From Kofleriaceae bacterium (lineage in GTDB: Bacteria; Myxococcota_A; Polyangia; Haliangiales; Haliangiaceae): a stretch of 37,607 bases of DNA. A model generated the notes under the pieces. The model did no database searches. It was given only the letters and a program-made list of their open reading frames with translations, and was not told where the DNA came from. Made by a program: the position numbers and the translations under genes. The stretch covers positions 1 to 37,607 of the forward strand of contig JAGPCY010000060.1 in NCBI GenBank assembly GCA_018057825.1, in the 5' to 3' direction. Position 1 is the first letter of the stretch. Each line of letters opens with the position of its first letter. Shown here piece by piece: positions 9,451 to 36,758 of this stretch.

Positions 9451-14639
<5,189 letters not shown>

Positions 14640-14721: not shown

Positions 14722-15938
14722 TCACTCGTGGCGCAGGGCGACGATCGGGTCGAGCCGGGACGCCCGTCGAGCCGGGTACCAGCCAAAGACCACGCCGACG
14801 GTGGCGGCCACCACGACCGCCAGGACCACGACGTCGGCCCGGACCAGCAGCGGAAACCCAAAACGTGCGGCCATGGTCCGACCAGCGGCGACGCCGACCG
14901 CGATCCCCAGCACCCCGCCGGCCGACGACAGCAGGATGGCCTCGACCAAGAACTGCTGGCGCAGGTGCCGGGGCCGGGCGCCGATCGCCAGCCGCAGGCC
15001 GATCTCCCGCGTGCGCTCGGTCACGCTCACCAGCATCACGTTCATGATCCCGATGCCACCGACCAGCAGGCTGACCAGCGCGACCCCGGCGAGCAGCGAG
15101 GTGATGGTCGCGGTCGAGGCCTTCATCGCGTCGGCGACCTGGGTCAGGTCGCGGACCGTGAAGTCGTCGGCGGCGTCGGCGCGGAGCTGATGGCGGGTGC
15201 GCAGGAGCTCCTCGATCGCGACCTTGGTCTCGGCGGTCTGGTCGCGCCCGGCGGCCATGACCATGACCTGACCGTTCACGTAGCGGGCGTTGCCGCCGAC
15301 CTTGCGCACGAAGGTCGTCGACGGCACGACGACGACGTCGTCGTTGTCCTGGCCGAACCCCGAGGTGCCCTGGCGGGCCAGGACGCCGATCACGGTGTAC
15401 GGCGTGCGATCGATGCGCACGGTCTGGCCGATCGGATCGACGTCGGGGAACAGGTTGGTCACCACGGTCTGCCCCAGGACCGCGACCCGGCGAGCGCCCG
15501 CGACGTCGGCCTCGGTCAGCGCCGCGCCGCGGGTCACCGCCCACGACCGGATCGTGAACCACGCCGGGGTGGTCGCGGTGATCTGCGTCTGCCAGTTGGC
15601 GAGGTCGGTCACGACCTGCGCGCCGGCCCGGAGCTGGGGCGCGGCGGCCGCGACCTCGGGCAGCGCCGCGATCGCGTTCAGATCGTCCCAGGTCAAGGTC
15701 GGCTTCGAGCCGGCGCCGCCGCGCGCGCCGCCGGCGGTCGAGGCGCCGCTGGTGACGATCAAGGTCGAGGTGCCCATGGCCTGGAACTGCTGGGCGACCC
15801 GGGCCTTGGCGCCCTCGCCGATCGCGACCATCGCGATGACCGCGGCGACGCCGATCACGACGCCGAGCACGGTGAGGAGCGAGCGGACCTTGGCCCGGCC
15901 CAGGGCGGTGACGGCGATCGCGGTGGTGCGGGTGAGGT

Positions 15939-15942
<4 letters not shown>
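14722..15942 (-). CDS. MacB-type ABC transporter permease
   Basis: 406-residue permease of a MacB/LolE-like (type VII) ABC exporter. First helix at about residues 20-45 (SLLTVLGVVIGVAAVIAMVA), a periplasmic domain of about 230 residues, then three helices near the C-terminus with the family motif GGIGIMNVMLVSVTERTREI (about 290-309) and a closing ARRASRLDPIVALR. The true start is the GTG at 15942, which overlaps the ATPase stop as GTGA and has GGAGGAG upstream. The open frame extends to 17979, but that upstream portion is an antisense-like shadow of other genes. In E. coli MacB the ATPase and permease are fused; here they are separate. Confidence 0.94.
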
Positions 15943-16742
<800 letters not shown>

Positions 16743-16766: not shown

Positions 16767-18080
16767 TCAGAACATCGGCGGCGGACCGGGGGGCCGGCCG
16801 CTGGAAGAGGTGGCGCGCCCGGTCGAGGCGGCGCGGGCGCCGGCGCCGCTGGGGCGCGAGTCGGCGGTGATGACCAGGTCGTCCTCCTGGAGGCCGTCGC
16901 CAGCGACCGCGGTCACCGCGCCATCGGACAGGCCGGGGGTCACCGCGATCGCGACCGGCGCGCCGGCGCGCAGGACCCACACCGCGGCGCGCGGCGCCCC
17001 GCCGGGCGATGGCCCCACGCCGGTCGGGCCCGGCGCGCCGGCGGAGCCTTCGGCGGGACCACGCGCCCGCCGCGCGGCGGCCGGGCGATAGCGCAGCGCC
17101 TTGGCCGGGACGATCAGCGTGTCGCGGGCCTGGTCGACGATGAAGGTGGCGGTCGCGGTCATGCCCGGGCGGAGCGCGCCATCGGGGTTGGCGACCGCGA
17201 TGACCGCGTCGTACGACACGACGTTGGCGGTGGTGAGGGCCTGGTTGCGGACCTGCCGCACCACCCCGCCGAAGCTGCGGTCGGGGAACGCGTCGAAGCG
17301 CAGCTCGACGGTCTGGCCGTCGCGGACCTGGCCGACGTCGGCCTCGGCGACGCTGGCGTGCAGCTCCATGCGCGCCAGGTCGCCGGCGATCACGAACAGC
17401 TCGGGGGCCTGCAGCGACGCGGCGACGGTGTTGCCGGGATCGACCGAGCGCGACACCACCACGCCCGCGATCGGCGCGGTGATCGTCGCGTAGGTCAGGT
17501 TGGTGCGGGCGGTGTCGACCTGGGCCTTGGCCTCGATCGACCCGGCGCGCGCGGCCGCGACCGCGGCCTCGGCGACCCGCAGCGCCGCCAGCGCGGCGTC
17601 GACCTCGGCGGTGGCGACCGCGCCGCTGGCGACCAACCCGGCCGCGCGCTGATGGGCGGCGCGGGCGTTGGTCAACGTGGCCGTGGCCCGCGCCACCTCG
17701 GCCTGGGCGGCGGTCAAGCGCGCCCGCGCCGACGCGAGCTGGGCGGTGAGCAGCGTCGGCTCCAGGCGCGCCAGCACCTGGCCGGCCTCGACCCGATCGT
17801 TGTAGTCGACCAGCACCTCGGCGACCCGCCCAGACACCTGACTGCCGACGGTCGACGCCACGACCGGTGACAGCGTGCCGGCGGCGGTCACCGTGCGCGT
17901 CACGGCGCCGCGGGTCACGGGCGCGGTGGTGTAGGTGAGCGCGGTCGGCGCCGCGCGCCAGCGCTGCCAGCCGAACCAACCGACGGCCAGCGCCCCGACC
18001 AGGAGCGCGGGGGTCAACGCGCGCCGAGCGAGGCGCGGCAGCGGCGAGTCATGGGCGACGCGAGTCGGCGGCGAAGGCAT
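16767..18080 (-). CDS. MacA-like periplasmic adaptor (HlyD/RND-MFP family)
   Basis: 437-residue membrane-fusion protein linking the ABC permease to the outer-membrane channel. One N-terminal membrane helix (about residues 21-38), lipoyl-type domain (SQVSGRVAEVLVDYNDRVEA, about 77-96), an Ala-rich alpha-helical hairpin (about 105-185), second lipoyl half (APIAGVVVSR) and beta-barrel (RPGMTATATFIV). A Pro/Gly/Ala-rich insert near 335-370 and a disordered tail ending PPGPPPMF are extra. Start: ATG 18080; the frame is open to 18203, but a sigma-54-like promoter and dyad motifs occupy that stretch. No Shine-Dalgarno; predicted transcript start is 2 nt upstream. Confidence 0.93.
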   Translation of the reverse strand: MPSPPTRVAHDSPLPRLARRALTPALLVGALAVGWFGWQRWRAAPTALTYTTAPVTRGAVTRTVTAAGTLSPVVASTVGSQVSGRVAEVLVDYNDRVEAGQVLARLEPTLLTAQLASARARLTAAQAEVARATATLTNARAAHQRAAGLVASGAVATAEVDAALAALRVAEAAVAAARAGSIEAKAQVDTARTNLTYATITAPIAGVVVSRSVDPGNTVAASLQAPELFVIAGDLARMELHASVAEADVGQVRDGQTVELRFDAFPDRSFGGVVRQVRNQALTTANVVSYDAVIAVANPDGALRPGMTATATFIVDQARDTLIVPAKALRYRPAAARRARGPAEGSAGAPGPTGVGPSPGGAPRAAVWVLRAGAPVAIAVTPGLSDGAVTAVAGDGLQEDDLVITADSRPSGAGARAASTGRATSSSGRPPGPPPMF

Positions 18081-18092
18081 GCCGAGCGCGAT

Positions 18093-18109
18093 TGCAAGCG
18101 TCAGGCCCG
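18093..18109 (-). promoter_or_regulatory. Candidate sigma-54 promoter of the macA-like gene
   Basis: Minus-strand CGGGCCTGACGCTTGCA keeps the GG-N10-GC spacing and a perfect TTGCA -12 element; the -24 element is GGGCCT instead of TGGCAC. The predicted start of transcription (about 18082) is 2 nt before the ATG. Confidence 0.5.
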
Positions 18110-18158
18110 CCGCGCCGCGCGACCGCGCGCGCGCCGCGAGGCCGCGCCGACGAGCGGA

Positions 18159-18193
18159 CTGCGAGAGTTGCAGGACGTCTGCAGCGGCCGCGG
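18159..18193. promoter_or_regulatory. Two candidate regulator dyads upstream of the macA-like gene
   Basis: CTGCGAGAGTTGCAG at 18159-18173 matches, on the other strand, the divergent-region dyad CTGCAGGTCTCGCAG at 13 of 15 positions. A weaker half-matched dyad CTGCAGCGGCCGCGG follows at 18179-18193, centres about 20 bp apart. They lie about 50-90 bp upstream of the -24 element, the usual place for an NtrC-type activator. Confidence 0.5.
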
Positions 18194-18209
18194 TCCCGGC
18201 CAAGGACCA

Positions 18210-19549
18210 TCACTCGATGCCGTAGCGCTTGAGCTTGTCGTACAGCGTGCGCTCGGCGATGCCGAGCAGCTCGGCGGCCTTGCGGCGGTTGCCGCCGACC
18301 GAGGTCAAGGCGGCGACGATCGCGTCGCGCTCGAGCTCGACCAGCGGCCGCGCGACCGCGACCGCCGGGGCGACCGACGCGCTGCTGTCGTGGGGCGGCC
18401 CGCCGGTCTCGAGCCAGACGTCGGCCGCGCCGATCACGTCGCGCTCGGCGAGGATCGCGGCGCGCTCGAGGGTATTGGCCAGCTCGCGGACGTTGCCCGG
18501 CCAGTGCCACGCCGCGAGGCGCGCCTCGGCGTCAGGCCCCAGGGTCAGGACCCGACCGCGCACGCTGGGGCCGAGGCGCGCCAGGAGCGCGCGGGCCAGC
18601 GGGATCAGATCGCCTCTGCGCTCGCGCAGCGGCGGCAACCGGATCGGAAAGACCGCCAGGCGATGGAACAGATCCTCGCGGAAGCGCCCGCTCGCCATCA
18701 TCGCCCCGAGATCGCGGTTGGTGGCCGCGATCCACCGCACGTCGACCTCCAGGCTGCGGGTGCCGCCCAGGCGCTCGAAGCGGCGCTCCTGCAGGACCCG
18801 CAGGAGCTTGGCCTGCAGCTCGCCCTTGAGCTCGCCGACCTCGTCGAGGAAGAAGCTGCCGCCGTCGGCCAGCTCGATCTTGCCGCGGCGCCGCTCGACC
18901 GCGCCGGTGAACGCGCCGCGCTCGTGGCCGAACAGCTCGCTCTCGAGGAGGTTCTCGGCCAGGGCGGCGCCGTTGACCGCCAGGAACGGGCGGGCCCGGC
19001 GCTCGCTCTTGGCGTGGATCGCGCGGGCCGCGACCTCCTTGCCGGTGCCGGTCTCGCCCAGGAGCAGCACGCTGGCGCTGGTGCGCGCGACCTTGTCGAT
19101 CGCCGCGACCACCGGCGCCATCGCGGGATCGCCGTAGGTGAGCGGCGGCAGCCCGTCGTCGACCGCGGCCCGGGCGTCGAGCAAGCGGCGCCGTTCGAGG
19201 GCCCGCTCGACCACCAGGCGCAGCTCGTCGGGTCCGCCCAGGGGCTTCTGCAGGTAGTCGAGGGCGCCGAGCTTCATGGCCTCGACCGCGGTGTCGACCG
19301 TGCCGTAGGCGGTCATCACGATCACCTCGACCTCGGGCTGCTCGGCCTTGAGCTTGCGGACCAGGGCCAGGCCGTCGAGGTGCGGCATCTTCAGGTCGGT
19401 GATGAGCAGGTCGAAGCCGCGCTCGTCGAGCCGTCGGGCCGCGACCCGACCGTCCTCGGCCTCGACGACGTCGTGGCCCTCGAGGCGCAGGGCGTCGCCG
19501 ACGAACTCGCGCAGCCCCGGCTCGTCGTCGGCCACCAGGATCCGCGCCA

Positions 19550-19550
<1 letters not shown>
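18210..19550 (-). CDS. NtrC-family sigma-54-dependent response regulator
   Basis: 446 residues. Receiver domain 1-115 with acidic pair DDE (about 8-10), phospho-acceptor Asp in LLITDLKMP (about 52), conserved Thr in MTAYG and Lys in LQKPL. AAA+ domain about 135-370 with Walker A GETGTGKE, the sigma-54-contacting GAFTGA loop, Walker [13 protein letters not shown] and arginine-finger region. The C-terminus is a Fis-type helix-turn-helix ([24 protein letters not shown]). ATG 19550 overlaps the kinase stop by one base (TGATG); a GTG at 19553 is also possible. It lies in one direction with the kinase upstream and the pump genes downstream, so it most likely activates the sigma-54-like promoters around it. 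Confidence 0.96.
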
Positions 19551-20812
<1,262 letters not shown>

Positions 20813-20825
20813 TCTACCGCGTGAC

Positions 20826-20842
20826 AGCAAGCCGCGGGCCAC
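20826..20842 (-). promoter_or_regulatory. Candidate sigma-54 promoter of the kinase-regulator-pump operon
   Basis: Minus-strand GTGGCCCGCGGCTTGCT matches the -24/-12 consensus YTGGCACGnnnnTTGCW except at the leading Y and one A, with exact GG-N10-GC spacing. Predicted start about 20815, 3 nt before GTG 20812. Confidence 0.6.
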
Positions 20843-20877: not shown

Positions 20878-20914
20878 GACCTGCAGGATCCGCAGGCCGC
20901 TGCAGGTCTCGCAG
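20878..20914. promoter_or_regulatory. Shared tandem dyads between divergent sigma-54-like promoters
   Basis: Two 15-bp CTGC-N7-GCAG dyads, CTGCAGGATCCGCAG (20881-20895) and CTGCAGGTCTCGCAG (20900-20914), lie 19 bp apart centre to centre, about two helical turns. Together they also form 9-bp inverted arms GACCTGCAG (20878-20886) and CTGCAGGTC (20900-20908). They sit midway between the two outward promoters, about 55-92 bp from either predicted transcript start, as expected of an enhancer-type activator site. Confidence 0.6.
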
Positions 20915-20934: not shown

Positions 20935-20951
20935 CTGGCGCGTCCCTTGCT
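20935..20951 (+). promoter_or_regulatory. Candidate sigma-54 promoter of the tolC-like gene
   Basis: CTGGCGCGTCCCTTGCT matches YTGGCACGnnnnTTGCW with a single A-to-G change and exact GG-N10-GC spacing. Predicted start about 20962, 2 nt before ATG 20964. Confidence 0.65.
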
Positions 20952-20963
20952 GCGCGCTCGATC

Positions 20964-22382
20964 ATGCCTCGCGCCCGCTCGACCTTCGCCGCCCTCGTCC
21001 TCACCGCCGGTTGTGTCCACACCGCGCCGCCCACGCCGCGCACCGCGCTCGATCCGATCGCCGCGTTCTCGGTCAGCGGCGCCGCGCGCGCGCCGGCCCG
21101 GTGGTGGCAGGCCTTCGGCGATCGCGCGCTCGACGCGCTGATCGCCGAGGCGATCGCCGACGGCTTCGACGTCCGCCTGGCCTGGACCCGCCTGGCCGCC
21201 GCCGAGGCCGCGGCCCGCAGCGCAGGCGCCAGCGCGTGGCCGACCCTCGACGCCAGCGCCAGCGCCGGCGCGGCGATGACCGTCGATGGCGACGGCGCCG
21301 TCACCCGTCGCTCGACCAGCGTCGGCCTCGGCGCCAGCTACGAGCTCGATCTGTGGGGGCGCCTGGCCGCCGGACGGCGCGCCGCGACCGACTCCGCGGC
21401 CGCCGCCGCCCTCGAGGTCGAGGCCGCGGCGATGACCGTGGCGGCGCAGCTCGCCACCGCCTGGTTCCAGCGCGCGACGACCGCCGCGACGATCGAGCTC
21501 CTCGAGGCGCAGCTCGCGGCCAGCGCGTCGACCCTGGCCTTGATCGAGGCCCGGGTCGCGGCCGGGGCGGCGCCGCCGACCGAGCGCGCCAGCCAGGCCC
21601 AGGCCGTCGAGTCCCTGCGCGGTCAGCTCGCGACCGCGCGGCCGCAGCTCGCGATCGCGGCGCACACGATCAACTTGCTGCGCGGGGCCCCGCCGAACGC
21701 GCCGCTACCGCCGCCGCCGCGCCTGCCCGAGGTGCCGGACCTGCCGGCGACCGGGATCCCGTCCGAGGTCCTGACCGCGCGCCCCGACGTGGCCGCGGCG
21801 TGGCGCCGGGTCGAGGCCGCCGACGCCGCCGTGGCCCAGGCCCTGGCCGACCGCTACCCGCGCCTGTCGCTGTCGTTCGGCGTCAGCACCGCCGCGTCCT
21901 TGGCCAGCGCCCTGGCCGACCTCGGCGCCAACCTGATCGCGCCGCTGTTCGACGGTGGCGCGCGCGCGGCGACGCTCGATCGCCGGCGCGCCGAACTCGA
22001 CACCGCGTGGCTGACCTACCAGCGCGCCGTGGTCGCCGCCGCCGTCGAGGTCGAGGACGCGCTGGCGACCGAGGCCGGTCAGGCCGCGCTGGTCGCCAGC
22101 CTCGACGCCCAGGCGCTCCACGCCGAGGTCGCCCTGGCCGGGGTCCGGGCCCAGTACGCCGCCGGCGCCGCCGATCAGCTCCGGGTCCTCGACGCCGAGC
22201 GCACCGCCCAGACCGTCGCGCGCGCGCGGCTCGTGGCCCACGCCGCCCAGCTCGCCGCCCGGGTGGCCCTGTATCGGTCGCTCGCCGGTCGCCTGGCCCT
22301 GCCCCGCCCTGCGGATCCCGCAGCCCTCCCGCGGATCCCGCAGCCCGCCGTCGCGCCGACCCGCGCTGCCGAGGCCGGTTAG
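20964..22382 (+). CDS. TolC/NodT-family outer-membrane efflux lipoprotein
   Basis: 472 residues. Signal peptide with lipobox LTAGC (Cys17), then two outer-membrane-efflux halves rich in Ala-Leu coiled coils; the first contains SYELDLWGRL (about 129-138), characteristic of the NodT class, the second LSLSFGVS and LIAPLFDGG. A Pro-rich break (PLPPPPRLPEVPDLP) separates them. It should form the trimeric outer-membrane exit duct for the MacA/MacB-like pump encoded divergently. No Shine-Dalgarno before ATG 20964; the signal peptide excludes a much later start. The C-terminus ends in a Pro/Ala-rich tail. Confidence 0.93.
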   Translation: MPRARSTFAALVLTAGCVHTAPPTPRTALDPIAAFSVSGAARAPARWWQAFGDRALDALIAEAIADGFDVRLAWTRLAAAEAAARSAGASAWPTLDASASAGAAMTVDGDGAVTRRSTSVGLGASYELDLWGRLAAGRRAATDSAAAAALEVEAAAMTVAAQLATAWFQRATTAATIELLEAQLAASASTLALIEARVAAGAAPPTERASQAQAVESLRGQLATARPQLAIAAHTINLLRGAPPNAPLPPPPRLPEVPDLPATGIPSEVLTARPDVAAAWRRVEAADAAVAQALADRYPRLSLSFGVSTAASLASALADLGANLIAPLFDGGARAATLDRRRAELDTAWLTYQRAVVAAAVEVEDALATEAGQAALVASLDAQALHAEVALAGVRAQYAAGAADQLRVLDAERTAQTVARARLVAHAAQLAARVALYRSLAGRLALPRPADPAALPRIPQPAVAPTRAAEAG

Positions 22383-22393
22383 GCCGCTCGCGG

Positions 22394-22410
22394 CTGGCCC
22401 GCGCCATGCA
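22394..22410 (+). promoter_or_regulatory. Weak candidate sigma-54 promoter of the EF-hand lipoprotein gene
   Basis: CTGGCCCGCGCCATGCA keeps GG-N10-GC but differs from consensus at one -24 base and has ATGC for TTGC. Predicted start about 27 nt before ATG 22448. GC-rich DNA makes chance matches likely. Confidence 0.25.
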
Positions 22411-22447
22411 CTACCGAAGCCCGACTGACCGTCGTCAGGAGGACGTC

Positions 22448-23143
22448 ATGATCGCCAAGCTCTCTCCCCTCTCGCTCATCGCCTTCGGTCTCCTCGCCGC
22501 GCTCGGTTGCGCCGAGGACGCCGATCCCGCCACCACCACCACCACCGCGGCCGAGCGCATGGCCGCCTCCGAGGATGGCCGCCGCGGTCATCGCGATCGC
22601 CACCAGCGCCTCGACACCGACGGCGACGGCGCGATCTCGGACGCCGAGCGCGCCGCCGCTCACCAGGCCCGGCTCGACGGTCTGTTCGCCGACCTCGACA
22701 CCGACGGCGACGGCAAGCTCACCGCGGACGAGCTGGCGGCCCGCCCCGGACGACGGGGCCCCGACCTCGCGCGCCTCGACACCGACGGCGACGGCGCGTT
22801 GTCCAAGGCCGAGCTGGCCGCCGGCAAGCCGCCGCGCGATCCCGACCGCGGGCGCGGCGGGCGCGGCGGGCCGCCCGGCGATTGGCTCGCGAAGCACGAC
22901 ACCGACGGCGACGGCACGCTGTCCGACGCCGAGCGCGCCGCGGCCCATCAGGCGCGCGCCGCCGAGCGGTTCGCGCGCCTCGACGTCGACGGCGACGGCA
23001 AGGTCACGGCCGCCGAGTGGGACGCCGCGCCCAGCCGCGGCCATCGCCGCCCAGCCCTCGCCGAGCTCGACGGCGACGGCGACGGCGCGCTCTCGCTCGC
23101 GGAGCTGCAGGCCCACCAGCCGCCGCGCCCGCCGCGGCCGTGA
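22448..23143 (+). CDS. EF-hand calcium-binding lipoprotein
   Basis: 231 residues. Signal peptide with lipobox LAALGC (about Cys21). Six EF-hand loops follow: DTDGDGAISDAE, DTDGDGKLTADE, DTDGDGALSKAE, DTDGDGTLSDAE, DVDGDGKVTAAE and DGDGDGALSLAE, all with acidic positions 1, 3, 5 and 12 intact. Loops 1 and 4 and their flanks are near-duplicates (SDAERAAAHQAR), indicating internal duplication. AGGAGG lies 6 nt before ATG 22448. It is 65 bp after the tolC-like gene in the same direction, so it may be cotranscribed, and only 11 bp from the convergent acyl-CoA dehydrogenase gene. Probably a periplasmic or surface calcium-binding protein; partner unknown. Confidence 0.9.
   Translation: MIAKLSPLSLIAFGLLAALGCAEDADPATTTTTAAERMAASEDGRRGHRDRHQRLDTDGDGAISDAERAAAHQARLDGLFADLDTDGDGKLTADELAARPGRRGPDLARLDTDGDGALSKAELAAGKPPRDPDRGRGGRGGPPGDWLAKHDTDGDGTLSDAERAAAHQARAAERFARLDVDGDGKVTAAEWDAAPSRGHRRPALAELDGDGDGALSLAELQAHQPPRPPRP

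Positions 23144-34622: not shown

Positions 34623-36758
<2,136 letters not shown>

Follow-up and report, generated by a model that had tools for sequence, protein, structure and literature searches.

A candidate NtrC-type regulon with a recurring 15-bp dyad and putative near-leaderless σ54 promoters at a MacAB-like pump locus of a Kofleriaceae bacterium

A gene for a MacA-like periplasmic adaptor lies directly behind the genes for a sensor kinase and an NtrC-type response regulator, which raises the question of whether this regulator also controls the pump and, if so, through which DNA site. We analyzed this locus within a window of 37,607 nucleotides (the whole stretch of DNA under study) and at the loci of relatives of the regulator. 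On the minus strand the genes follow each other in the order kinase, regulator, MacA-like adaptor, MacB-like ATPase and FtsX-type permease. Divergently from the kinase gene, the plus strand carries the genes for a NodT-type outer-membrane lipoprotein and then for an EF-hand lipoprotein.

14722-15942, minus strand: MacB-like FtsX-type permease, separate gene (profile matches)
15939-16742, minus strand: MacB-like ATPase, separate gene (profile matches)
16767-18080, minus strand: MacA-like periplasmic adaptor (TIGR01730 above cut-off)
18210-19550, minus strand: NtrC-type response regulator (REC, AAA+ with GAFTGA, Fis HTH)
19550-20812, minus strand: sensor histidine kinase (GTG start at 20812)
20964-22382, plus strand: NodT-type outer-membrane efflux lipoprotein (TIGR01845 above cut-off)
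22448-23143, plus strand: EF-hand lipoprotein (PF13202 and others)

The regulator combines the domains Response_reg, Sigma54_activat and HTH_8 with a GAFTGA motif, which places it in the NtrC-type class. The gap between regulator and macA had been given as 18081-18209 (129 bp) in a preliminary description of this DNA; this interval is correct, since on the minus strand the regulator gene ends with its stop codon at 18212-18210 and macA begins with an ATG at 18080-18078. Elsewhere in the window, 11904-14639 (minus strand) encodes a Cys-rich secreted protein, the MYXO-CTERM-like tail of which scores below the cut-off (15.9 versus 20 bits), and a 15-bp unit, CGAGCCCCGGTCTGG, forms a tandem array at 35268-35384.

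The genome encodes σ54 itself (rpoN; PF04552, E 9.3e-65). Candidate σ54 elements were scored over 12 consensus letters, with GG-N10-GC placed within TGGCAC and TTGCW surroundings, and four of them precede genes of the locus.

18093-18108, minus strand: macA element GGGCCTG-ACGC-TTGCA (GGGCCTGACGCTTGCA), 9/12, 12 nt before the macA ATG
20826-20841, minus strand: kinase element TGGCCCG-CGGC-TTGCT, 11/12, 13 nt before the GTG (20812), conserved in G003
20936-20951, plus strand: outer-membrane-protein element TGGCGCG-TCCC-TTGCT, 11/12, 12 nt before the ATG, conserved in G003
22395-22410, plus strand: EF-hand element TGGCCCG-CGCC-ATGCA, 10/12, followed by a leader with AGGAGG

The kinase and outer-membrane-protein elements are the joint best σ54 matches in the whole window. 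The -24/-12 element that had been proposed for the macA gap is indeed there: a minus-strand 16-mer (18108-18093) retains both GG-N10-GC and TTGCA. However, its score of 9/12 is not significant alone, as scores of at least 9 are reached by about 20 sites of the window. The preliminary description further proposed that this putative internal promoter may lift the pump genes above the regulator genes; compared with macA, the kinase/regulator operon has the stronger σ54 match (11/12) plus two dyads.

From promoter end to start codon, the distance is 13 nt for the kinase, 12 nt for the outer-membrane protein and 12 nt for macA, and a Shine-Dalgarno sequence is absent from all three. With GC at -13/-12, such a spacing would leave a leader of only 0-3 nt, into which a Shine-Dalgarno sequence cannot fit. 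A promoter core so close to the start codon that a Shine-Dalgarno sequence is excluded, the arrangement by which a leaderless gene is recognised, is thus found here. The same geometry dominates consensus σ54 promoters across the family. In the genome of the window, among 44 listed matches of GGCNCG-N4-TTGCW upstream of an ATG, 16 have a spacing of 12 nt and 8 one of 13 nt (reversed control, 9), and the TGGCNCG-N4-TTGCW sites of this genome include no independent leader of 20-49 nt. In the remainder of the family, 58 of the 134 matches listed lie at 12 nt, 21 at 13 nt and 96 at 11-15 nt; all of these tallies refer to listed matches, and a few promoters are counted with more than one ATG. Elsewhere in the order and class, spacings of 11-14 nt are 3.7-fold denser than those of 20-49 nt; in 112 genomes of other classes of the phylum they are 1.2-fold denser, barely over background. 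A GC preceding the ATG is often conserved in the genome of the window (G000) and in the family (TTGCT-N10-GCATG).

This reading depends on the start codons, which are predictions; the kinase start is a GTG and the macA frame is open for 132 nt upstream. If the starts were mis-assigned and the true ones lay further downstream, the mRNAs would have ordinary leaders. We consider this unlikely, because the peak at 12-13 nt recurs across dozens of unrelated genes in the genome of the window and in the family, where the ATGs concerned open long frames and many of these begin with a signal peptide or lipobox, and because no alternative start of the outer-membrane protein is plausible ahead of its lipobox. 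Moreover, TTGAC/TANNNT promoters of the same genome behave alike: their distance from -10 to ATG peaks at 6-7 nt, from which leaderless transcripts seem to be common in this genome.

The second component of the proposed promoters is a 15-bp dyad, CTGCRNNNNNYGCAG, which lies at the following positions.

18159-18173: CTGCGAGAGTTGCAG, exact match in the macA gap, proposed activator-binding site for macA
20881-20895: CTGCAGGATCCGCAG, divergent gap
20900-20914: CTGCAGGTCTCGCAG, divergent gap
22309-22323: CTGCGGATCCCGCAG, within the outer-membrane-protein gene at its 3' end; the EF-hand σ54 element follows 86 bp downstream
22329-22343: CCGCGGATCCCGCAG, degenerate second copy, read directly off the sequence

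The reported likeness between the two gaps holds, as the macA-gap dyad, read as its reverse complement CTGCAACTCTCGCAG, agrees with CTGCAGGTCTCGCAG at 13 of 15 positions. The dyad at 20881-20895 and the fourth pair of dyad and σ54 element (22309-22323 with 22395-22410, upstream of the EF-hand gene) had been missed in the preliminary description. The window contains 5 copies of CTGCRNNNNNYGCAG versus 0.51 expected, a number reached in 0 of 100 shuffles; one dyad in the shuffled macA gap has a P of 0.003, and none of 2000 shuffles of the divergent gap yielded two. The fifth copy, at 18789-18803 within the regulator gene, is most readily attributed to conserved coding sequence (LLRVLQER). When counted on the window sequence, 43-80 bp separate the dyad centres from the -12 C at three promoters, those of macA, the kinase gene and the outer-membrane-protein gene.

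All 56 genomes searched contained relatives of the regulator, and the flanking stretches of 20 of these relatives were examined. The HTH stretch of the regulator, GNRR(K/R)AAELLGI(A/G)ERTLYDKLK, is nearly invariant among them. In ten gaps we counted 14 dyads versus 0.046 expected by shuffling. Taking the window locus and the 20 stretches together, 33 dyad/σ54 pairs were found at 15 of 21 loci, whereas at the same loci the reversed motif gave 0 pairs and eleven rearranged palindromes gave 0 or 1 each; a recognised pair is missing at 6 of the 21 loci, some of which are cut by contig ends. The genes behind the pairs vary. In G013, G015, G018 and G019 an unrelated small secreted protein is encoded behind the regulator instead of the MacA found in G000, G003, G005 and G009, and its gene nevertheless retains the dyad, the σ54 element and an ATG at 12-13 nt. 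Other relatives carry a dyad and a σ54 element at an EF-hand gene close to the kinase gene. The consensus derived from the relatives is CTGC-R-N5-Y-GCAG, in which position 6 prefers G and position 10 prefers C, and the invariant letters of which follow partly from the search pattern used. This is close to the specific binding motif CTGCrrnnnyyGCAG that had been suggested from the window, and conservation strongly supports that candidate. In the divergent gap of G003 (L075:10753-10785), three dyads overlap in a 9-bp register (CTGCGAAACCTGCAGGTCCTGCAGCGCCTGCAG).

Sequence alone cannot establish binding, and 15-bp dyads suit repressors too, so that another factor, for instance a separate pump repressor, could bind the dyad while the regulator acts elsewhere. 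This is very unlikely in view of the fact that the dyad accompanies relatives of the regulator, stands before different targets and keeps an enhancer distance from a σ54 element.

For macA itself, transcription could also come only from read-through from the kinase promoter, the weak 9/12 element being a chance match; kinase, regulator and macA share a strand, and the gap measures 129 bp. The relatives leave this possibility a slim chance. The macA-macB order is kept in three of the 20 stretches (G003, G005 and G009), and in each of these a σ54 element lies 12-13 nt before macA, in the same position as in the window. The elements of G003 (GGGCGCG...TTGCA) and G005 (CGGCCCG...TTGCA) both score 10/12, and the dyad in the macA gap is exact in these two genomes and imperfect in G009. 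The earlier suggestion of a putative promoter directly upstream of macA is therefore strongly supported by conservation. An RNA hairpin or a terminator between the regulator gene and macA is a hardly credible reading of the dyad, since this inverted repeat within an intergenic gap has arms of only 4-6 bp and no T-run, the interval 18081-18209 contains neither a terminator nor a σ70 promoter that we could find, and protein binding fits both the divergent-gap dyads and the overlapping 9-bp register of G003.

The motif had been expected to be rare at random positions of the genome. The bare motif does not live up to this and was rejected as evidence: CTGCA-N5-CGCAG has 71 copies in the 8.9 Mb genome, which is fewer than its reversed control (189). 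What is specific is the combination of dyad, σ54 element and start codon, 5 of the 7 genome-wide matches of which fall in the macA gap and the divergent gap. Several motif matches in regulator genes were set aside as coding repeats such as CTGCGCGTGCTGCAG (LRVLQ). Outside the locus, the composite pattern is no commoner in the genome of the window than the reversed control, in a search that covered promoters with short leaders; likewise, a composite search of 32 genomes gave no excess over the control beyond the regulator locus. The regulon of the activator therefore looks local to the locus.

The sequence elements, their conservation, the geometry and the rpoN gene are seen directly. From these we infer binding, activation, start sites and leaderless translation as follows. 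The kinase would activate the co-encoded NtrC-type regulator, which would then bind the dyad upstream of the -12 element as an enhancer and, by means of its AAA+ ring with the GAFTGA loop, open promoter complexes of the σ54 polymerase. Four promoters would use like dyads, namely those of the kinase-regulator operon, the divergent outer-membrane-protein gene, the internal macA-macB unit and the EF-hand gene; the dyads at the kinase-regulator promoter would imply positive autoregulation. At the kinase, outer-membrane-protein and macA promoters, the polymerase would start about 0-3 nt from the start codon, and the resulting mRNAs would thus be leaderless or nearly so, while the EF-hand mRNA would have a leader bearing a Shine-Dalgarno sequence. 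We regard it as very probable that the regulator acts on its own operon, the pump, the outer-membrane protein and the EF-hand gene in this manner, with the first three being (near-)leaderless.

The promoters listed for kinase, outer-membrane-protein, macA and small-secreted-protein genes all show the 12-13 nt spacing without a Shine-Dalgarno sequence. At the EF-hand promoters of the window and the relatives, the leader contains at least GGAG (AGGAGG in the window, 22395-22447), as it does at the promoter of a WXXGXW-protein gene in G009. This division of the regulon into leadered and leaderless mRNAs is a hypothesis, spotted post hoc on about two dozen promoters. With leaderless and Shine-Dalgarno-led mRNAs under a single activator, the output of the regulon could split at translation. 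We are inclined to favour, with some reserve, the reading that the family has a dominant (near-)leaderless σ54 class with the core at 12-13 nt, and that one activator governs leaderless kinase, adaptor and outer-membrane-protein mRNAs together with a Shine-Dalgarno-led EF-hand mRNA. Such a regulon would allow leaderless mRNAs to be compared with leadered ones in a natural setting, and an uncharacterised σ54 activator gains a concrete candidate site for binding, along with proposed targets among which is a MacAB-like pump.

Among known systems, the nearest functional analogue is ZraPSR of Salmonella and E. coli (PMC4987338), in which an envelope-stress kinase and a σ54 regulator act on divergent σ54 promoters for their own operon and a periplasmic metal-binding protein. 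Both systems pair a sensor kinase with a σ54 response regulator, and both have their own operon and a divergent promoter as targets (proposed targets in the case of our locus). By analogy, the inducing signal may be cell-envelope stress. However, the locus falls outside ZraPSR by its scores and its periplasmic partner: the regulator reaches 373.7 versus 760 bits for ZraR and the kinase 166.2 versus 479 for ZraS, both below the cut-offs, and no Pfam match to a ZraP-type periplasmic chaperone was found at the locus, which encodes an EF-hand protein instead. Unlike ZraPSR, it also has a MacAB-like pump in the proposed regulon and putative near-leaderless promoters. The pump in turn scores above the RND_mfp and NodT subfamily cut-offs, has its MacB-like ATPase and permease split into two genes, and stays below the MacAB-TolC equivalog models (MacA 163.2 versus 342 bits; MacB 258.5/233.3 versus 966).

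The Nla28 regulon of Myxococcus xanthus (PMC9765219) resembles the locus in its NtrC-type response regulator, the targeting of its own operon, its σ54 promoters and its repeated sites of similar letters. The Nla28 half-sites are tandem 8-mers, CT(C/G)CG(C/G)AG, set at varying distances, whereas the dyad of the locus spans 15 bp and keeps its centre fixed at 7 bp. Across phyla, σ54 promoters have been predicted for FtsX-type (MacB-type) permease genes (PMC12316311); in the accessible part of that report these genes are given neither an activator nor a binding site, and their start-codon geometry is not described. We found no published account of leaderless σ54 genes as a class in the literature searched, which does not prove its absence; single cases may already be known, since a study of Sinorhizobium (PMC3616915) maps both leaderless starts and σ54 promoters. 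Leaderless genes were predicted in 8 of 33 delta-proteobacteria (PMC3160421). Those whose -10 box adjoins the ORF (PMC3160421; PMC12340547) share with the promoters described here a fixed short distance between core and start without a Shine-Dalgarno sequence, but they are of the -10 type, whereas the core at the locus is -24/-12, so that the start-codon geometry would carry leaderless transcription from -10 type to activator-dependent σ54 promoters across the family.
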